From positions 1 to 64,000 of IMG/VR virus record IMGVR_UViG_3300043427_001988: a stretch of 64,000 nucleotides of DNA; one strand, given 5' to 3'. Positions 11,941 through 26,362 of this stretch are shown here, piece after piece (position 1 is the first letter of the stretch; each line of letters starts with the position of its first letter). The position numbers were made by a program, and so were the translations under genes. The stretch is from a virus. The notes under the pieces were generated by a model. It did no database searches. It was not told the origin of the DNA and saw only the letters and a program-made list of their open reading frames with translations.

Positions 11941-11961
11941 TAGGGGTAGGGGCGGGCGGGT

Positions 11962-12513
11962 TTACCATGATGTGACGTAGTGATACCCTACACAACAATC
12001 AATACACGAACCACAATATGCACATGTTTCACCCGTCAAACAATCGAAACAATCAGTACATGTACAATGATAGCGGGTATCGTTGCATCGTTTGCATTGT
12101 AATTCACTACGGTATACATCTGTTATGTATTGCGGGGTTTGACGGTATGCAATTACATCGTCTACTACGTAGTGAACCAATTCATTTACGATAAACGCTA
12201 TAGACGGTTTACGGTGTGTACGAACGGGGGCGTAATTCATATGTAAACCCGTTTGGTAGTATTTGGTATTTAACGCCCGTACATATCCAAACGTATCATA
12301 GTGAACCGTTGCATAAATATGCGTTCGTTCAATTATGCCAGGTATCGTATACAGCGTATGTAACGCCCCGTTATGGTACGTATGTGCGGGTAAATCAATA
12401 TTGATAGATAACGCCCCGTTCGTATCACGGTGAACCCCTACGCTATACCCCGCAACAATCGTATTAATATAATCACCCCAAACCGTTCGTTTGATAGAAT
12501 AATTCCTATTCAT
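11962..12513 (-). CDS. Protein with C-terminal Cys-cluster (183 aa)
   Basis: ATG at 12513 overlaps the stop of the upstream HNH gene by 8 nt. Residues 1-135 are mixed alpha/beta with no recognised family (RTHIYATVHYDTFGYVRAL). The last 45 residues hold CKRC, HCTC, CFDC, CAYC, CIDCC: enough cysteines for two or more zinc sites, compatible with a RING or zinc-ribbon-like nucleic-acid or protein binding module. Third gene of an overlapping operon. Its codons share the CGCCCC/CpG-rich character of the region. Confidence 0.65.
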   Translation of the reverse strand: MNRNYSIKRTVWGDYINTIVAGYSVGVHRDTNGALSINIDLPAHTYHNGALHTLYTIPGIIERTHIYATVHYDTFGYVRALNTKYYQTGLHMNYAPVRTHRKPSIAFIVNELVHYVVDDVIAYRQTPQYITDVYRSELQCKRCNDTRYHCTCTDCFDCLTGETCAYCGSCIDCCVGYHYVTSW

Positions 12514-12991
12514 GATTAACCCCCGATACAGTATTAATAAACTTACGAATTGAATTGATAGATAAATCCACGTTCACAGAGTAGGGTAGTAACAGTAGTA
12601 TTTGCTGCGGGGTTAATACATCACGTTGCAACGAATTACATTTACTACAATCTACATACAAATTGAACGGGGTTAAATTACCCCCGAATATTCGGGGTAT
12701 CTTATGACATATTGCAAGTTTATCACCCCCGCAATTTATGCATTTGGGGCGTTCGGGTAAATCCAAACCGAACCGTTTGCAATTATCGTACACGCCCCTA
12801 TGTGGTAAATGTTTAAATGATGTATCACCCCCGATACTACCCGCTATCAAACCGTTATGCTCTAATAGGATTACATCATGATAGCGTTTATTAAAATCGG
12901 TAATTATTGCATCTGTAAGATACATAGATAATGCATCAAACGCCCCGCCCCCGTTTAATAAACGGTTCACTAGAATTAGTGGTATTTTCAT
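12506..12991 (-). CDS. HNH-type endonuclease domain protein (161 aa)
   Basis: ATG at 12991 shares one base with the upstream TGA (TGATG). After about 85 residues of unknown sequence comes CINCGGDKLAICHKIPRIFG and a short distance later CSKCNSLQRD. The CxxC, H-K-I-P, GG, N and CxxCN order fits an HNH nuclease with structural zinc. Catalytic His would be in CHKIP; the last motif residue is Asn (CNSL), as in many HNHN variants. In phages such proteins are homing nucleases or packaging partners; here it is a free gene in the parS region. Confidence 0.65.
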   Translation of the reverse strand: MKIPLILVNRLLNGGGAFDALSMYLTDAIITDFNKRYHDVILLEHNGLIAGSIGGDTSFKHLPHRGVYDNCKRFGLDLPERPKCINCGGDKLAICHKIPRIFGGNLTPFNLYVDCSKCNSLQRDVLTPQQILLLLPYSVNVDLSINSIRKFINTVSGVNHE

Positions 12992-13584
12992 CACTCACCC
13001 CGCAAATTATCTGTATGAACGCCCCGTTTGATATATTCATAACGCCCCGAACCAAACGCCCCCGCTACATATTCGGTATGTTTGAATAATCGTAAATCGG
13101 GTATACGTAAACGAACCGCTACGCTATCACTATTCACAAACGCATTATCAATATAGATGTAATCAATAACGGTATTTGTATCGTCTACCATATCCAAACG
13201 TAAACGATTTAACGCCCCGCTATTCAATTCAATATTAATAATGCATTCATTCGGTAATAGATGATTTACGGGGTTATATTCATACCCGTAAAATATCACC
13301 CGATTATGATTATTAAATCGAACCCGTTCGTTAAATTGTTCTATTGCATCGTGTAGCGTGTAGTGGTTCGTTGTATCGTATAAATACCCCCCGTCGTTTA
13401 CTACGCTAGTATGAAACAAATCACTATAAGAGTAGCAGATGATTTGTAGTGTAGCGGTTTGGGTTTGTGCTACTGCAATAGCATTAACGTCAATACCCCC
13501 GTATGTTGTAACAATACGATATGTAATACTTGAATAATCTACCCGTTCACCATTTGCATAAATATGCGTTCGTTTGTTAATCAC
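12991..13584 (-). CDS. Hypothetical beta-rich protein (197 aa)
   Basis: Probable GTG start at 13584, because AGGGG lies 7 nt upstream at the same position as in the other cassette genes; the frame further up to 13647 crosses the hairpin module. A long run of strands rich in Tyr, Asn and Val (ITYRIVTTYGG; YDTTNHYTLHDAI; INIELNSGALNRLRLDM). No family recognised. First gene of the 13584-11962 overlapping operon. Confidence 0.65.
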   Translation of the reverse strand: MINKRTHIYANGERVDYSSITYRIVTTYGGIDVNAIAVAQTQTATLQIICYSYSDLFHTSVVNDGGYLYDTTNHYTLHDAIEQFNERVRFNNHNRVIFYGYEYNPVNHLLPNECIINIELNSGALNRLRLDMVDDTNTVIDYIYIDNAFVNSDSVAVRLRIPDLRLFKHTEYVAGAFGSGRYEYIKRGVHTDNLRGE

Positions 13585-13653
13585 TACGATACCCCTATCA
13601 ATATAATAGCGGGGGCGTATATCACCCCCGCAACGAACCCGCTGCAAACCGAT

Positions 13654-13669
13654 TGTTTCACGTGAAACA
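13654..13669. other. parS: parS site 1 (TGTTTCACGTGAAACA)
   Basis: Perfect 16-bp palindrome identical to the canonical bacterial chromosomal parS bound by ParB (Spo0J). It directly abuts the TAA of the 13670-14050 gene. Confidence 0.9.
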
Positions 13670-14050
13670 TTAACCCCGTTTGATTGTTGTAATCAATACG
13701 TCTAATGCATCACGGGTATTTTTTGCATCATTCGAATATGTTTGTAGACGTGCTACTAATGCATTATTACGTTGAATTAACCCCCGCAACGTTTGTTTGT
13801 ATGAACGTCGTAATTCTATATCGTACCATTTGGTATCAATAAGTAGACCGCTGATAATAGTAATTTGTTTCGTTACATCGTTCAATTCTACGGTGTCAAC
13901 ATGGGTAAACCGTTCGATAGTTTGTAGCACGTCTAGTGTAGTACCAAATGTTGCAATTTGTAGCGGGTTCATATTCTTAACCCGTTCGTTCAATACCCGC
14001 TTATATTCGCTAGAATTAACCGGTTTACGTTGCGTTTGTTTGTTATCCAT
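13670..14050 (-). CDS. Helical coiled-coil-like protein (126 aa)
   Basis: ATG at 14050 with AGGGG 6 nt upstream. Basic N-terminus (MDNKQTQRKPVNSSEYKRVL) followed by predicted long helices (VDTVELNDVTKQITIISGLL; RRSYKQTLRGLIQRNNALVA). Looks like an oligomeric adaptor or DNA-binding protein; no ParB, ParA or CTPase motif is present. Its stop codon touches parS 1. Confidence 0.65.
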   Translation of the reverse strand: MDNKQTQRKPVNSSEYKRVLNERVKNMNPLQIATFGTTLDVLQTIERFTHVDTVELNDVTKQITIISGLLIDTKWYDIELRRSYKQTLRGLIQRNNALVARLQTYSNDAKNTRDALDVLITTIKRG

Positions 14051-14064
14051 TGTGAACCCCTATT

Positions 14065-14151
14065 CTATACTAATGCTAAAAATACAAATACTGCTATCAC
14101 CCAAACATACACCCATACACAAACCCAAAAAATAAACGTCAAATTATCCAT
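14065..14151 (-). CDS. Single-span membrane peptide (28 aa)
   Basis: ATG at 14151 preceded by the cassette leader (AGGGG, 6 nt), stop TAG at 14067-14065. Sequence MDNLTFIFWVCVWVYVWV then IAVFVFLALV is one strongly hydrophobic helix. The stop is followed at once by AATAGGGGTTCACAATG for the next gene. The conserved leader is the main support. Confidence 0.6.
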   Translation of the reverse strand: MDNLTFIFWVCVWVYVWVIAVFVFLALV

Positions 14152-14156
14152 TGTGA

Positions 14157-14235
14157 ACCCCTATCAATATAATAGCGGGGGCGTTTATCACCCCCGCAAC
14201 GAACCCGCTGCAAACCGATTGTTTCACGTGAAACA
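14157..14235 (-). repeat. parS cassette module (five near-identical copies)
   Basis: Read leftward, each copy runs parS, about 20 bp of GGTTCG-type sequence, GCGGGGG-N9-CCCCCGC hairpin, TATTATATTGATAGGGG and a start codon. Copies: 13591-13669, 14157-14235, 14527-14605, 14791-14870 and 15152-15228. Hairpin arms: 13609/13631, 14175/14197, 14545/14567, 14810/14832, 15167/15189. The hairpin would act as terminator or as 5' mRNA stem, the AGGGG as ribosome site of the next gene. Confidence 0.85.
14220..14235. other. parS: parS site 2
   Basis: Perfect TGTTTCACGTGAAACA, one base from the TGA of the 14237-14521 gene. Confidence 0.9.
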
Positions 14236-14236
14236 A

Positions 14237-14521
14237 TCACCCACGGTGTCCAAATGTGAACCGGTGTATGTACACCCCGTCGTATTTACCATGTTTGATT
14301 AACTTGCGTACACGGTGTATTAACTTACGTGCTACCAAATCATCACCCCGTAACAATGCGTTATATGCATCATCTAACAATCTACGTAATCTACCATAAT
14401 AATCGTATACGTACACCTCATTTACCCCCAAATTGTAATCATCACATGCACGTTGTAGCATGATACCCGTTGTAACATGTAAGAGAAACAAACGTTTACC
14501 TAATTCACTAATGCTATTCAT
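14237..14521 (-). CDS. Helical basic protein (94 aa)
   Basis: ATG at 14521 with AGGGG 6-7 nt upstream (GATAGGGGTATCGA). Helix-rich with an Arg/Lys-rich C-terminus (YYGRLRRLLDDAYNALLRG; ARKLIHRVRKLIKHGKYDG). Could bind nucleic acid; no family recognised. Confidence 0.65.
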   Translation of the reverse strand: MNSISELGKRLFLLHVTTGIMLQRACDDYNLGVNEVYVYDYYGRLRRLLDDAYNALLRGDDLVARKLIHRVRKLIKHGKYDGVYIHRFTFGHRG

Positions 14522-14589
14522 TCGATACCCCTATCAATATAATAGCGGGGGCGTTTATCACCCCCGCAACGAACCCGAACCGAACCCAT

Positions 14590-14605
14590 TGTTTCACGTG
14601 AAACA
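14590..14605. other. parS: parS site 3
   Basis: Perfect TGTTTCACGTGAAACA, one base from the TAA of the 59-aa gene. Confidence 0.9.
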
Positions 14606-14606
14606 T

Positions 14607-14786
14607 TTACACCATTGACCATTGCATAAACGCAACATAGCGGGGCGTATCGTATACACCCGCCCGTACATACCGAACGTATGGAACGCTATCACCCATG
14701 TACCATGTAGCAGTACCGACAATCACCCCGCCCCGTACCAATTGAATGATGTATGCATCGCTATACATCGTATGTTTGTAATCCAT
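14607..14786 (-). CDS. Hypothetical small protein (59 aa)
   Basis: ATG at 14786 with the cassette leader (AGGGG, 6 nt) and stop TAA at 14609-14607. Sequence begins MDYKHTMYSDAYIIQLVRGG and continues with strands (VIVGTATWYMGDSVPYVRYV). No family recognised. Framed by parS modules on both sides, which supports it as a real cassette gene. Confidence 0.65.
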   Translation of the reverse strand: MDYKHTMYSDAYIIQLVRGGVIVGTATWYMGDSVPYVRYVRAGVYDTPRYVAFMQWSMV

Positions 14787-14854
14787 TGTGAACCCCTATC
14801 AATATAATAGCGGGGGCGTATATCACCCCCGCAACGAACCCGAACCGAACCCAT

Positions 14855-14870
14855 TGTTTCACGTGAAACA
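14855..14870. other. parS: parS site 4
   Basis: Perfect TGTTTCACGTGAAACA, two bases from the TAG of the 14873-15145 gene. Confidence 0.9.
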
Positions 14871-14872
14871 AT

Positions 14873-15145
14873 CTATAACCCGTTGCGTTTGTCGGTATGG
14901 TATATCATTGTTTGAATGTATACCAAATCTAGAATTGACGGTTTACGCTTGTTTTCAATAATGCGTTCACCGTAGCACGTCGTAATAGCGTATGGGTTAT
15001 GTACCGTTTTGTATACCGTGATGTAATAATCACGAACGTACACGAATGTGTAGATTGTTTCATTGCCGTTCACGTCGTTAACCGTTAACGTCGTTGCGGG
15101 TGAACCGTCAAACGTCGTATTACCCCAAATCAAACCATGCTCCAT
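14873..15145 (-). CDS. Hypothetical beta-rich protein (90 aa)
   Basis: ATG at 15145 with AGGGG 7 nt upstream. N-terminal strands (TLTVNDVNGNETIYTFVYVR; YYITVYKTVHNPYAITTC) and a short helical C-terminus (PSILDLVYIQTMIYHTD). No family recognised. First clear gene of the cassette row. Confidence 0.65.
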   Translation of the reverse strand: MEHGLIWGNTTFDGSPATTLTVNDVNGNETIYTFVYVRDYYITVYKTVHNPYAITTCYGERIIENKRKPSILDLVYIQTMIYHTDKRNGL

Positions 15146-15212
15146 TGTAAACCCCTATTCATAATAGCGGGGGCGTTTATCACCCCCGCAACGAACCCAA
15201 ACCCGAACCGAT

Positions 15213-15228
15213 TGTTTCACGTGAAACA
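15213..15228. other. parS: parS site 5
   Basis: Perfect TGTTTCACGTGAAACA; only 21 bp separate it from site 6. Confidence 0.9.
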
Positions 15229-15249
15229 TTTACCCGAACCCGAACCCAT

Positions 15250-15265
15250 TGTTTCACGTGAAACA
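15250..15265. other. parS: parS site 6
   Basis: Perfect TGTTTCACGTGAAACA, the rightmost copy. Confidence 0.9.
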
Positions 15266-15540
15266 TTTTCACGTATTGACGGGCGGCATTTACCGATACA
15301 ATCGGGTATTACGCCCCCCCCGTCTATTGAATTGTCAATGTACCGTGATAGCGGGGGTTCGTTTACGCTACGTTTACCGTATGGGGGCGTTCGCAGTAGC
15401 CAAACCGTGAACCCCCCCGAACCCATATCACCCGCCCGTATCGGCGTGGACACCCGCCCGTATGGGGGCGGGGCGTAATTTAACGCTACGGGTATTGTAA
15501 CAAATCCAATACCCCCGTGCCAAAAAATAGATTAACGTTT
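15266..15540. other. GC-tract region without a convincing gene
   Basis: No confident gene. It has repeated CCCGCCCGTAT and TATGGGGGCG words and a degenerate cassette-leader-like GGGGTTCACGG at about 15397-15407. A leftward frame 15217-15453 is open but reads straight through both parS sites, so it is not called. It may be a decayed cassette. Confidence 0.5.
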
Positions 15541-15558: not shown

Positions 15559-15693
15559 AAAAACACTTAAAACCGTTTTTATTCATATTTTCTTAACAAT
15601 CCAGGGGTAGAACAAATGTGCTACTTTTTGGGGTACGGACTATACACAGACCCTCAAAAATTTTTAAAAGCCTCCCCTTCCTTTTTACCCCCA

Positions 15694-15766
15694 GGAACCC
15701 CACATAAACCCCACATAAACCACCAAGAACCACCAGAGAACCACCAGAGAACCACACATAAACCAC
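15694..15766 (+). repeat. Short direct repeats (CCACATAAACC, GAACCACCAGA)
   Basis: Three CACATAAACC units (about 15700, 15711, 15746) surround repeats of AGAACCACCAG. No gene lies in 15541-15790 apart from these repeats, the direct-repeat operator and the terminator at its right edge. Confidence 0.6.
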
Positions 15767-15767
15767 A

Positions 15768-15802
15768 CAATAAAAAAGAAGAGGAGCATGTTACTGCTCC
15801 TC
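15768..15802 (-). terminator. Terminator of the long leftward operon
   Basis: Leftward GAGGAGCA pairs with TGCTCCTC around GTAACA and is followed by TTCTTTTTTATT. The 5' arm includes the last codons and stop of the 15791 gene. Confidence 0.85.
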
Positions 15803-17903: not shown

Positions 17904-18297
17904 GTTTTGCGACAATCTCCTTTCGTTTCACAGTGTAATAGTGAAACCCCTTAAAGCGTTCAAGACGCTCTCTAATTCTGCCGGTCAGGTAGGTAAACAC
18001 CTCATTCGTGTGTAGTTCTCCCTTCCAGTTTCCCTCAACGCGTTTTCCTATCATCTTTGGTACGAGGGTATTATCCCCGTAGATTTCGATAAAGAAATCG
18101 CTTGTATCCTCGTAGTGAATATGCAACCGGCGGAGCATTCTCAGGAGCATTGTAAACTCGCCCTGGTTACTGTCGCCAATTCCGTCCATATCAAACTTGT
18201 GGTGGTATAAAATAGTTTTTGGGGATACGTTATCAACATAGATAACATAGCTACCATGTTGCGTACCCCCATCAAAATAACAGATTAACTTCGTCAC
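17893..18297 (-). CDS. RNase H-fold protein, probable ribonuclease H (134 aa)
   Basis: GTG start at 18297 overlapping the lipoprotein's TGA (GTGA). Motifs in RNase H1 order: CYFDGG (first Asp,  near residue 9), NQGEFTMLLRMLRRL (Glu, near 46) and IEIYGDNTLVPKMIGK (third Asp, near 74). RNase H hydrolyses RNA in RNA-DNA hybrids, for example replication primers. The fourth acidic residue is not certain by eye. Being in an operon with an exported lipoprotein rather than the replication module is unusual. Confidence 0.7.
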   Translation of the reverse strand: MTKLICYFDGGTQHGSYVIYVDNVSPKTILYHHKFDMDGIGDSNQGEFTMLLRMLRRLHIHYEDTSDFFIEIYGDNTLVPKMIGKRVEGNWKGELHTNEVFTYLTGRIRERLERFKGFHYYTVKRKEIVAKLGH

Positions 18298-19451
18298 TCA
18301 GACTTGCCGGTAATACCGGAGAGCAATTTCTTTTGATACCAGATTTGCTGTGTTGATGCAACCACCCCTGCATCAAGGAACGGCGTGCCATCCTGGTATA
18401 CAAGTGGTCCCTTCCAAAGGGTTTTACCACTAGCCAGCATCGCAATAAACTGGTCTAATGCAGCGTTTTCCGTAAAGGCCTCTCCGCGAGTAAAGCCGAT
18501 ACCATTTGTGTCCATACTGTCAAAGTCGTCCCAGTTTGGTGCAAACCATACAAAGTCTGGTTGGTATGCGCGGTTCTTTTGTGCGTCGGCAAGGCGCATG
18601 TACTCTGGGTACCAGTTAAAGTACGGAACACCAAGACATGCTTCAGGACCTTTCTCACAGGCTTCTGGGTGGTCATAGGGCAGTGAGTACACGTCCTTTC
18701 CATCAGCACGGTGCTTTGCGACTTGTACCGCAACGTCTGGGGTGTCAATACCGCCCATGATAACATCGTGACCGGTAGATACAAAGTCCCCCACAATCGT
18801 TACGGGGTCAAGCGTAACACCTGGGATATTAAACCAGAATCCTACCCATACGACATTAAACGAAAGTGGTTCGGTTTGCCCGCGGAGTGCAGTCCAGCAG
18901 TAGTTCGCGCCCAGGTAGGCCGAGTTGACAAGACGGCGGGTTTCGTCGTTAATGAGTGGCCCGACGTAGCCAATCTTACCGGTCTTCGTGGAAAGGGCTG
19001 CTGCACAACCGGCAATCATCTTGCCGTATTCCATCTGACCCATCACGTTCCCGAGGTTATCTGGAGCCTTTCCTGTGATACGGTCATCGCCTGATGCGTG
19101 AACAAACTTGATTTGGGGATGGGCAAGAGCCGCGTTGCGGGTGCCGTCCTTAAAGTCATCCGAGTTGGTGATAATCATGGTAGCACCCTGACCAATCAAC
19201 TCCTCAATTACTTGCTCTACCTTAACATTGGGTCGGTCAGCTGGGTTAACCTTGTCTACATAGACGTACTTAATTCCCGCATCTTTCTCCACACGAAGCA
19301 TGGCATCGTGGTGTGCTTGGCTCCACCCGCCGTCGTTAATTGGCCCGACCAACACCATACCAATCGTGGTGGTCTGGGTTTCTGCGGGACTTGCCCCACA
19401 GGCCATGAGCATTACGGCGATAATCGCCATCAGTACTGTTCGCAAAATCAT
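18294..19451 (-). CDS. BMP-family (PnrA-like) substrate-binding lipoprotein (385 aa)
   Basis: ATG at 19451 with GAGGAG 3-4 nt upstream. Signal peptide with lipobox (LMAC at about 15-18) indicates lipidation and surface display. Core motifs of BMP/Med/PnrA proteins: IGMVLVGPINDGGWSQAHH, a GATMIITNSDDF segment and KTGKIGYVGPL. Cellular homologues bind nucleosides or similar for ABC import. No permease or ATPase is encoded nearby, so it could scavenge for a host transporter or alter the cell surface. Length agrees with bacterial homologues; an extra WYPEYMRLADAQK insertion near residue 270 is present. Probably acquired from a host. Confidence 0.8.
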   Translation of the reverse strand: MILRTVLMAIIAVMLMACGASPAETQTTTIGMVLVGPINDGGWSQAHHDAMLRVEKDAGIKYVYVDKVNPADRPNVKVEQVIEELIGQGATMIITNSDDFKDGTRNAALAHPQIKFVHASGDDRITGKAPDNLGNVMGQMEYGKMIAGCAAALSTKTGKIGYVGPLINDETRRLVNSAYLGANYCWTALRGQTEPLSFNVVWVGFWFNIPGVTLDPVTIVGDFVSTGHDVIMGGIDTPDVAVQVAKHRADGKDVYSLPYDHPEACEKGPEACLGVPYFNWYPEYMRLADAQKNRAYQPDFVWFAPNWDDFDSMDTNGIGFTRGEAFTENAALDQFIAMLASGKTLWKGPLVYQDGTPFLDAGVVASTQQIWYQKKLLSGITGKSE

Positions 19452-23758: not shown

Positions 23759-26362
23759 TTACCTCTCTGTAGTCTTTGCGGATGGTCTGCCTAGGGCGAC
23801 CGATTGTGCGATGTTATCAATTTTTCCACGAAGTGCGTAAATAAAACACAAGTAACTTGCAAAGATGTGGTCATCATCAGCAGCCCCGCTTCCACGGTCG
23901 CTCATAATGAAGTAGTGGTCGTTTCCAGTAATTCTACGCTGTCGGGTTAATCGCTCGAGTTGCGAAATACCCTCCACATCAATTTCCGAAAATACCACGC
24001 GCCCTTCTGTAACCATTCTGGCAAGCTCCTTACCACCCCATGAACGGAAAACTTCAGTGAGTTCAGTATCGTCCTCGGTTCGCCCAACTGGCACACGCTC
24101 GTTAAATAGTACGCTAACCACTCGTTCAGAATATTTATTATTTGCATATTCAGGCCTTGTTGTTAAAGATTGGATAATGCCAGGACCTCCACCACCAGCA
24201 CCTACGTCAATAGCGATGCGACTGGGGTTATAGTGTTTTGTAAGATAGTGAATAATACGTTCTTGCTCTGGATAGTCAATCTTGGTAAGTCGGTATCGCA
24301 CAAATGTTCTATACGTATTTTCGTACAATCCAATAACTTGAATAATCGTCGGGTCGGTAAACCCTGTGTCAATAGACAGAATGATTGTTTCTTGGTTCTT
24401 GACGTTGTGTAGTTTTAGCACTTCTTCGTAGCTTTTTCCCTTCATCTTATCGTTGTTACTAAAGCGATAACTGTAAAAGTCAAACGCTTCGGTTACAAAC
24501 GCATCGCGAGGGATTACCTGGAAGCTTGCACTACCGTGTTTACCAAGTACGAGTTGTTGGAAAATGTCTTCCTCAATACCACCGTATTTCCGTAAAGAAT
24601 CGTTCCAGTCATCTAGCGTGAAGTACGGATTGTTCGGAGAAGGGATGCGGTACTTCTTGTACTTCGCTCTTCGCATATCTAAGTCGTATAGTGCTGAATT
24701 TCTGAGGCCGTTTGGCACGCCGCAGTACACTTCCTGTACCTTTGGTTCCCAGGTATTCAACGTGGGTTGAAGCTGATTAAACGCGGTCATTGGGAATAAC
24801 TGCATCTCATCACCAGCAATCTTAGGGATATGCAGACCGACCAAGTTGTTCGATTCCTTTGTACCCGCAATACGCGCGTAGAAGCGATGATTCCGCCCAC
24901 CAAACTTAAAGTCAAGCGTACCTTTTGACCTATTCACATTATTCCCTAAGAACTCACGTAATAGCGGTGACGTAGTGAATTTGAGAATTACGCGGTCGAG
25001 AAGCGGTGTTAACTGGTTTGTGTTTGGCGTGACTAGTAATTGTTCTGCTGTTTTTGGAAACTCGATGTCATTGTTTACAATCTGGTACGTGAGTAAATCT
25101 TCAATAATTACCGAGTTATGCACAATGACGTACTCAGAAATATAGGTTTCATCAGTATAGACAGACACTGCATACGTAGCGACTTTGTACGGACGCTGTG
25201 TGCGTTTTTGAAGCGGTTCCCAGCGCACTAATGGCGGTGGGTCAATGTCGTCATAGTTGGCTTCAACTCTAACCCCAGGGATTTTAAACGTCTGCCAGAA
25301 CCGTGTTGCAAACTCTTTGCTGATTGTTTCTACGCGCCACATATCGCGATTGTACCGTAAGTTTCGCGCGCTATACTCATCATGCATTCCGATGTGTACC
25401 AGCTTAGTCGCTACGCCAAAGTAGGACAGTACTTCTTGGAAGTCTTTTGCGTATCGTGTGTTAAACACAGGGATGCTGACTTTTTCAAGACTAAGTGTTC
25501 CATACTGGGCGAATACCGCCTCAAGAAAGATTTTAATATTATCAAGTTTTTCTTTCTTTAACCAGTCCAAAGTAGCCGACCGGCGGTATCTTCTCTTTAA
25601 TGTACCAATCTCTTGCTGAATTTGAAAAAGGTAGTGCCTCGATTGCCCCGTGTTATAACGGTCGAAGTAATAATACCCATCCTCAATACGCAGTTTTGTA
25701 AAGATGTTATCGTTAATAAACTTTAACTCTTCTGCAATCTGCTTGTACTTCGGCTTGATTTTTAAATGACTCTTTAGCCGCATACGAGAGAGGGCATCAT
25801 ACCCCAAAAGGCGTAACTCAAACCAGCTGTACGAATCGTTTACGCAGTGGTCAGTAGGGAGGTAATTTGCAATACCGACTAAGTCGCCGAGTTTTAAGTC
25901 ACCAGCCAGTACAAATCCATGCGGAGTGAGTACGGGGTGATTTTCAGTACATTCTAGCTCGTGTCCAGTAGGAAACTCATATGTGTACGTGTATGTCCAT
26001 TTGTCAGGAGTTACTACCCCTCGACGCTGACGAAACTTCCCGTCAGTTGTGTACGCGTAGGTAATAAAGGAGCCTTTCTGCTCAAGTTGTCGGATAGACT
26101 TAAATCCATCAATCGTGTAGATTTTCGCGTTGAGTGGTTGGCACTTACCGATGGAACGCCCGCCAGTAATAATAATGTGCTTGTTTTGGTCGGTGAGGAT
26201 TTCTTTTTGATATGGTCGGTGTTTGAATTCTTCCGCAGGCCAGTTATTCTTGTTCATGTCCCCGTTATTTGTAGAACGGAGAAACTCATTAAGCCAGATA
26301 GGGTCTTCCATAATCTCAAGGAGAGCTAACTCTGGCTCTTCAATCTTTTTCTGGAGTGGCAT
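23759..26362 (-). CDS. terL: Terminase large subunit interrupted by an intein (867 aa precursor)
   Basis: The extein ATPase has Walker A GGRSIGK-S (split by the intein after Lys73), Walker B-like IAGDEMQ, and a C-terminal RNase H-fold nuclease with LSIDTGFTD, IAIDVGAGGGG and DDDHIFASY. It pumps DNA into the prohead and cuts concatemers. The mature spliced product would be 524 residues. ATG at 26362 overlaps the preceding gene by 23 nt. Without splicing the P-loop is broken, so packaging depends on intein excision. Confidence 0.9.
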   Translation of the reverse strand: MPLQKKIEEPELALLEIMEDPIWLNEFLRSTNNGDMNKNNWPAEEFKHRPYQKEILTDQNKHIIITGGRSIGKCQPLNAKIYTIDGFKSIRQLEQKGSFITYAYTTDGKFRQRRGVVTPDKWTYTYTYEFPTGHELECTENHPVLTPHGFVLAGDLKLGDLVGIANYLPTDHCVNDSYSWFELRLLGYDALSRMRLKSHLKIKPKYKQIAEELKFINDNIFTKLRIEDGYYYFDRYNTGQSRHYLFQIQQEIGTLKRRYRRSATLDWLKKEKLDNIKIFLEAVFAQYGTLSLEKVSIPVFNTRYAKDFQEVLSYFGVATKLVHIGMHDEYSARNLRYNRDMWRVETISKEFATRFWQTFKIPGVRVEANYDDIDPPPLVRWEPLQKRTQRPYKVATYAVSVYTDETYISEYVIVHNSVIIEDLLTYQIVNNDIEFPKTAEQLLVTPNTNQLTPLLDRVILKFTTSPLLREFLGNNVNRSKGTLDFKFGGRNHRFYARIAGTKESNNLVGLHIPKIAGDEMQLFPMTAFNQLQPTLNTWEPKVQEVYCGVPNGLRNSALYDLDMRRAKYKKYRIPSPNNPYFTLDDWNDSLRKYGGIEEDIFQQLVLGKHGSASFQVIPRDAFVTEAFDFYSYRFSNNDKMKGKSYEEVLKLHNVKNQETIILSIDTGFTDPTIIQVIGLYENTYRTFVRYRLTKIDYPEQERIIHYLTKHYNPSRIAIDVGAGGGGPGIIQSLTTRPEYANNKYSERVVSVLFNERVPVGRTEDDTELTEVFRSWGGKELARMVTEGRVVFSEIDVEGISQLERLTRQRRITGNDHYFIMSDRGSGAADDDHIFASYLCFIYALRGKIDNIAQSVALGRPSAKTTER
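25115..26143 (-). other. Intein in the terminase P-loop (343 aa)
   Basis: Residues 74-416 of the precursor. N-terminal block A CQPLNAKIYTIDG, block B TENHPVLTPHG, block F/G YISEYVIVHN followed by Ser as the +1 residue. The central region has vestiges of a LAGLIDADG nuclease (RLLGYDALS; FLEAVFAQYGTLS) in which the acidic catalytic positions look lost. Splicing restores GGRSIGKS. Confidence 0.9.

Follow-up and report, generated by a model that had tools for sequence, protein, structure and literature searches.

Why would a virus carry, within a short stretch of its genome, repeated copies of the site through which bacteria segregate their own chromosomes? ParB-parS is the main bacterial centromere, and ParB is a CTP-dependent DNA clamp. 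In the viral DNA analysed here (the window, 64,000 nucleotides of a 68,926-bp record) the sequence TGTTTCACGTGAAACA occurs six times, and all six copies match the 16-bp palindrome pattern of chromosomal-type parS, TGTTNCACGTGAAACA:

13654..13669, no strand assigned: parS site 1, exact match, directly 3' of the stop of a 126-aa gene
14220..14235, no strand assigned: parS site 2, exact match, 1 nt past the stop of a 94-aa gene
14590..14605, no strand assigned: parS site 3, exact match, 1 nt past the stop of a gene of about 59 aa
14855..14870, no strand assigned: parS site 4, exact match, 2 nt past the stop of a 90-aa gene
15213..15228, no strand assigned: parS site 5, exact match, upstream of the first island gene (below), in a 37-bp tandem repeat with site 6
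15250..15265, no strand assigned: parS site 6, exact match, upstream of the first island gene, in the 37-bp tandem repeat

The preceding stop codon thus lies 0–2 nt from parS at four of the six sites, and the other two are upstream of the first gene of the island. A preliminary description of this DNA had reported six perfect sites within 1.6 kb and none elsewhere in the window; both statements hold, the second even at relaxed stringency, since no further parS-like site was found with up to 3 mismatches in the window or with up to 2 in the whole record, where no exact copy lies outside 13654–15265. When the window was shuffled, matches with up to 3 mismatches averaged 0.49 and none of 100 shuffles reached six. 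The number of exact copies expected in the record is 2–4 × 10^-5 under Markov models of order 0 to 3, and among 840 palindromes of the same composition checked in the record parS is the only one that occurs. These comparisons rule out a chance origin, and the feature is real and well beyond chance, although the island and the copy number are read from a single contig, so that the count has no second witness.

Does the phage also encode the proteins that act on such sites? The preliminary description had seen no ParA or ParB gene, and the profile search, extended to the whole record (which is possibly slightly incomplete), agrees with it: no protein matches ParB_N (PF02195), HTH_ParB (PF17762) or AAA_31/ParA (PF13614). 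The first two of these thus give no sign, at the profile level, of a phage-encoded ParB. The record gave no match to an HTH_3-type repressor, there is no integrase among the scanned proteins, and the Pfam and PHROGs scans, which covered part of the ORFs, many of them orphans, gave no repressor, RepA or ParA gene. What the record does encode is a terminase with a likely intein, a portal protein, a B12-dependent ribonucleotide reductase, a DNA methylase, polymerase I, a DnaB-like helicase, a primase-like protein, RecA, a PD-(D/E)XK nuclease, MazG, thioredoxin and glycosyltransferases, a gene content that looks lytic-type. The terminase large subunit (23759–26362) carries its apparent intein by a match to Pfam Intein_splicing, and relatives align with it over the full 867 aa.

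The sites are not scattered singly between genes; they belong to a repeated intercistronic cassette. On the minus strand, which is the gene strand, its order is parS, a G-rich spacer, the hairpin GCGGGGGTGATAWACGCCCCCGC, the ribosome-binding site TATTATATTGATAGGGG and a start codon:

13580..13672, minus strand: cassette 1 (parS, GC hairpin, ribosome-binding site), direct repeat family D1
14146..14238, minus strand: cassette 2, direct repeat family D1, with hairpin
14516..14608, minus strand: cassette 3, direct repeat family D1, with hairpin
14781..14873, minus strand: cassette 4, direct repeat family D1, with hairpin
15141..15268, minus strand: cassette 5, carrying two parS, direct repeat with hairpin and 37-bp tandem repeat

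Four of the units are 87–94% alike over 93 nt; cassette 5 is a variant form, and site 6 lies in a 37-bp tandem copy. An early gene follows every one of the five cassettes. Six independent parS origins are thereby ruled out, since the sites are copies of one cassette, and because copying of the cassette accounts for their number, the six cannot be counted as six independent events. Is parS itself under selection within the cassette? Across the aligned copies none of the 16 parS columns varies, as against 10 of 21 columns in the flanks (Fisher p = 0.0017). The hairpin and ribosome-binding region is also nearly invariant within the four full cassettes, where all 16 variable columns would miss parS by chance with a probability of 0.036, so the column test supports selection on parS and does not decide it. 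A search of IMG/VR with the cassette pattern gave no other source.

All of the sites lie in a compositionally foreign island, whose genes are as follows:

11960..15400, no strand assigned: island of about 3.4 kb holding all parS, AG/CT odds ratio about 0.35, missing in relatives
14873..15145, minus strand: 90-aa orphan ORF (PHROGs and Pfam scans)
14607..14786, minus strand: orphan ORF of about 59 aa (ORF reading)
14237..14521, minus strand: 94-aa orphan ORF (PHROGs and Pfam scans)
14065..14151, minus strand: ORF for a 28-aa hydrophobic microprotein (ORF reading)
13670..14050, minus strand: 126-aa orphan ORF (PHROGs and Pfam scans)
12991..13647, minus strand: 218-aa orphan ORF (PHROGs and Pfam scans), start more likely near 13590
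12506..12994, minus strand: HNH-endonuclease-like protein (weak PHROG and Pfam HNH matches)
11962..12513, minus strand: 183-aa Cys-rich orphan ORF (protein scans)

The AG/CT dinucleotide odds ratio is 0.35 in the island (down to about 0.2) on both strands versus 0.86–1.0 elsewhere; GAG, AAG, GGA, AGG, CAG and their complements occur at about 10–20% of expectation, and codon usage is shifted in line with this depletion. The ribosome-binding sites of the island too read AGGGG. Conceivable sources of the depletion are the signature of a donor genome, avoidance of PAM or nickase sites, or a mutational process. As a common mark of parS-bearing phages it was set aside, since in L010, L114 and L120 it is milder (0.64–0.74 over the whole contig) and concerns different rare words. 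Apart from the HNH-like protein, the six larger island proteins tested gave no PHROGs match and no credible Pfam match. The 28-codon ORF has a cassette of its own and encodes an almost purely hydrophobic peptide, MDNLTFIFWVCVWVYVWVIAVFVFLALV, possibly a membrane microprotein. Scans of IMG/VR with two island proteins and the cassette, and of plasmids with one island protein, found no source for the island. The island lies in a hypervariable early region, and on both sides its flanking genes are homologous to and syntenic with those of relatives. An assembly chimera with host DNA is unlikely, as the island sits within this syntenic phage early region and its genes are small phage-like orphans.

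How widely is this arrangement shared by related phages? The near-identical contig G001 ends at about 19 kb, short of the parS region, so the comparison rests on relatives at 73–79% portal identity, contigs of 72–78 kb among them, and these have neither the island nor an exact parS. The trait is therefore accessory. The preliminary description had named loss of the sites from close relatives, with no effect on maintenance, as an observation that would count against a ParB-linked role; the loss is indeed found at this distance, and it does not follow from it that the sites are useless where they occur. In the homologous region of G004, G009 and G014, repeated cassettes likewise separate small genes; terminator-like hairpins number up to 17–27 there, and palindromes such as TTTACACNGTGTAAA are present. 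In the early regions of relatives (L144 4500–16800, L146 1–9000 and L150 7200–16300) each small gene has its own set of terminator-like hairpin, promoter and palindrome, in 17–27 copies, and the sequence is specific to the phage and differs from one phage to the next. One repeated palindrome per early gene thus seems to be a habit of this phage group, and the peculiarity of the present phage is that its repeated palindrome is host-type parS. GATC is completely absent from the 68.9-kb record (about 219 expected) and from G001, G011, G012 and G014, and GGCC is nearly missing in G011, G012 and G014, which looks like restriction-site avoidance.

Close to the sites lies an element that several relatives share:

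15644..15774, no strand assigned: conserved AT-rich core followed by some seven 11-bp repeats; a candidate origin, alternatively a packaging site (repeat analysis and conservation)

It consists of CACAGACCCTCAAAAATTTTTAAAAG and, after it, the 11-bp repeats, about 380 bp from the last parS and 0.4–2 kb from the sites overall. Copies of the core are present in G004, G011, G012 and G014, mostly with short direct repeats of other sequence next to them again; G009 gave no copy. Such a core, shared with relatives and accompanied by tandem repeats, has the layout of an iteron-type origin at the sequence level and suggests that the element may be a replication origin, with a packaging site as the alternative reading. 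Given their distance of 0.4–2 kb from it, we infer that the parS sites mark an origin-proximal region. Since relatives keep this element without parS, parS is dispensable for the phage group. The cassette structure, the foreign island and this adjacent conserved element all go beyond what the preliminary description contained.

Which bacterium could supply the missing proteins? The clue to the host is one host-derived gene:

18294..19451, minus strand: PnrA/Bmp-family lipoprotein of Chloroflexota origin, basis of the host inference (cellular relatives, tree)

This phage-encoded substrate-binding-type lipoprotein, derived from Chloroflexota, is kept across the whole phage group, and its best cellular relatives come from Chloroflexota, Roseiflexaceae among them. 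When 36 proteins were placed in a tree, the phage lipoproteins and Roseiflexaceae-type proteins fell on one branch with support 100/96, with the reservation that one row is titled Thermoflexus and that bins can carry wrong labels; the lipoprotein DNA of phage and Roseiflexaceae is 64–70% alike. The virus therefore probably infects a Roseiflexaceae-like member of the Chloroflexota, a host assignment that rests on this one transferred gene. Other host clues contributed little: the portal protein has no relative among genome contigs, phages or the PDB, the capsid, polymerase and reductase gave only distant phage matches, and CRISPR-spacer-like matches to the phage in Roseiflexaceae were weak, short and not interpretable. 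All nine Chloroflexota genomes examined have an exact parS and a strong ParB_N match, and in eight of the nine the best parB and an exact parS are near each other on one contig, usually within 1–2 kb. Exact parS is present in 19 of 26 genomes of the Roseiflexaceae-type family (1–4 each, often 30–300 bp apart). The inferred host group, then, encodes a ParB with an identical cognate site. The genomes closest by lipoprotein have 2–4 exact sites each, a number that the phage's six exceed.

Orphan parS is not confined to this phage. The 16-mer is present in at least 120 IMG/VR contigs versus 5 for the control TTGTTCACGTGAACAA, a palindrome with the composition and core of parS, scrambled. Among the matches listed, parS lies outside ORFs in 73 of 146 cases, though about 87% of the DNA is coding, and a ParB_N match is missing in 46 of 50 parS records, many of which are fragments. 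Closely spaced pairs occur in 43 viral contigs. Two groups among the matches listed, with TerL of phrog_38, have parS upstream of terL. One has a single site (L010, L030, L045, L069, L104, L114, L122 and others); the other, L020, L047 and L056, has three to five:

L020 2657–3444, L047 10535–11462 and L056 240–961, related phage contigs: five, five and three exact parS, respectively, packed into less than 1 kb upstream of terL

In a sample chosen by TerL regardless of parS, from a phage group unrelated to the present one, an exact parS lies 50–145 bp upstream of terL in 10 of 28 close relatives and a one-mismatch copy is present in 1 more, as against 0 of 31 distant TerL relatives; the control palindrome was not found in this sample. 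Two of the 10 terL-linked parS phages add a second, symmetric variant that preserves the palindrome, TGTTCCACGTGGAACA. An exact site at this 50–145 bp distance is seen in the single-site contigs named above and in L167, and, continuing this diverse group, in L171, L172, L183, L184, L189, L192, L196 and L198. Many contigs of the TerL-based sample stop with less than 200 bp of sequence ahead of terL, and these may be physical ends of the genome. Contamination of IMG/VR with host DNA is possible for single contigs and hardly explains the terL-linked sites.

These observations bear jointly on whether host ParB acts on the phage. Because all six copies are exact at 16 of 16 positions, parS is invariant while its flanks vary, and the phage has no ParB or ParA of its own, and because the lipoprotein groups with those of Roseiflexaceae, an identical parS lies near parB there, the motif is over-represented in viral contigs and sites elsewhere are linked to terL, host ParB very probably binds these sites, and we conclude that they are, on the sequence evidence, likely to be genuine host-ParB loading sites on phage DNA. 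The suggestion in the preliminary description that host ParB is borrowed through host-type parS is in this indirect way well supported. The best explanation of the whole, to which we give nearly even chances, is that host ParB, and through it ParA or SMC, is recruited to the origin-proximal region of the phage for positioning or processing of its DNA. The sites would have arrived with a foreign early-gene island, and their number would have risen as the intercistronic cassette was copied. The six chromosomal-type sites would then load host ParB onto phage DNA, the phage supplying the centromere only and depending on host ParB and, through it, on ParA and/or SMC. In this way parS would label the origin-proximal part of the phage genome, just as it does on the host chromosome, and incoming or replicating phage DNA might thereby be positioned, kept separate or compacted.

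Other uses of the same sites have to be weighed against recruitment for positioning. The sites might be a decoy that pulls host ParB, and the SMC it loads, off the chromosome and so disturbs segregation or the cell cycle, in which case their position would be immaterial. Six sites per phage genome are more than the closest host-group genomes have, they would multiply with phage replication, and multi-site parS arrays occur in other viral contigs; but many other viral contigs have just one site, at a constant position close to terL, which fits position and not number, and we consider titration unlikely. We think it somewhat less likely still that ParB clamps at gene junctions serve as roadblocks, insulators or silencers of small early genes. 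The model for this is the stoperators of mycobacteriophage L5, asymmetric sites in short intergenic gaps that are read by the phage repressor, and ParB can reportedly repress parS-proximal genes (PMC5521831). Cassette copying or gene control accounts better than a centromere does for the placement at gene junctions, with five cassettes each ahead of an early gene and four sites 0–2 nt past a stop codon, and relatives have other repeated palindromes and hairpins at equivalent junctions. Those relatives nevertheless do without parS, the sites may simply ride in a copied cassette, and there is no parS between the last island genes. Of the features of a stoperator system, the junction placement is seen here; no HTH_3 repressor was matched, and one of the many orphan proteins might fill that role.

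Two further readings seem to us improbable. The phage could persist outside the chromosome, as a prophage or a carrier-state episome, with host ParABS partitioning it, much as the preliminary description had proposed in speaking of the segregation of a plasmid-like state. The iteron-like array beside parS does resemble a plasmid origin-centromere layout, and some mycobacteriophages replicate extrachromosomally with a parABS of their own (PMC7157519); the proposal is not supported here, since the record gave no match to ParA or to an HTH_3-type repressor, the scanned proteins include no integrase, the gene set looks lytic, and relatives carry the conserved element without parS. Slightly more improbable is that the palindrome has nothing to do with ParB and instead forms an RNA hairpin or serves as operator for some unrecognised phage protein, its identity with parS being coincidental. 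In its favour, the early gene junctions of relatives carry other repeated palindromes, this one folds as a small RNA hairpin, and the phage is rich in orphan proteins. Yet all copies are identical to the 16-bp consensus, of which even one is expected only about 4 × 10^-5 times, a hairpin would allow compensatory changes and none is seen, no protein matches HTH_3, and parS is enriched across viruses.

If recruitment of host ParB is correct, phages would be tapping directly, by means of orphan host-type parS arrays, the machinery with which the host segregates its chromosome or loads SMC, and orphan parS offers a simple sequence signature for spotting further cases. The question reaches beyond this phage and is a general one, given that parS is enriched across IMG/VR and, in another group, keeps a fixed position ahead of the terminase gene. 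We tentatively entertain, as something we would sooner doubt than assert, the broader idea that many unrelated phages have orphan host parS close to elements for replication or packaging and exploit host ParB clamps (and ParA or SMC) to position or process their DNA without a partition protein of their own, which would amount to widespread centromere hijacking. The literature searched, a non-exhaustive set without preprints and most subscription journals, yielded no account of phages with orphan chromosomal parS, and the phages with partition functions that we found described all encode Par proteins of their own. What appears to be new is that a virus lacking Par proteins carries chromosomal parS, as part of a pattern that extends to other viruses.

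Several known systems share parts of this arrangement. Like the L5 stoperators, the present sites are many identical protein-binding sites in short intergenic gaps; those of L5 have no symmetry and bind a phage repressor, whereas these are palindromic and appear to be host-type parS. The extrachromosomal mycobacterial prophages RedRock and Miko also have centromere sites on a phage genome, but they encode their own ParA and ParB with different sites, the parS loci of RedRock being repeats of an 8-bp motif (PMC7157519), whereas here host-type parS occurs without Par proteins. An incomplete partition set is found too in a staphylococcal phage genus, the Lacachita group, which encodes ParB without ParA (PMC10286716), whereas the present phage has sites without either protein; a 2025 survey of ParB-CTPase folds covers phage and orphan ParB proteins (PMC12704722). 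In sequence the likeness is to chromosomal ParABS (ParB/Spo0J), with which this locus shares the identical 16-bp parS, clustered copies and a position near a candidate origin, and whose sites lie beside parB in the likely host group; the present locus differs in that its sites are on a virus without parA or parB, inside repeated intercistronic cassettes, and specific to one lineage.
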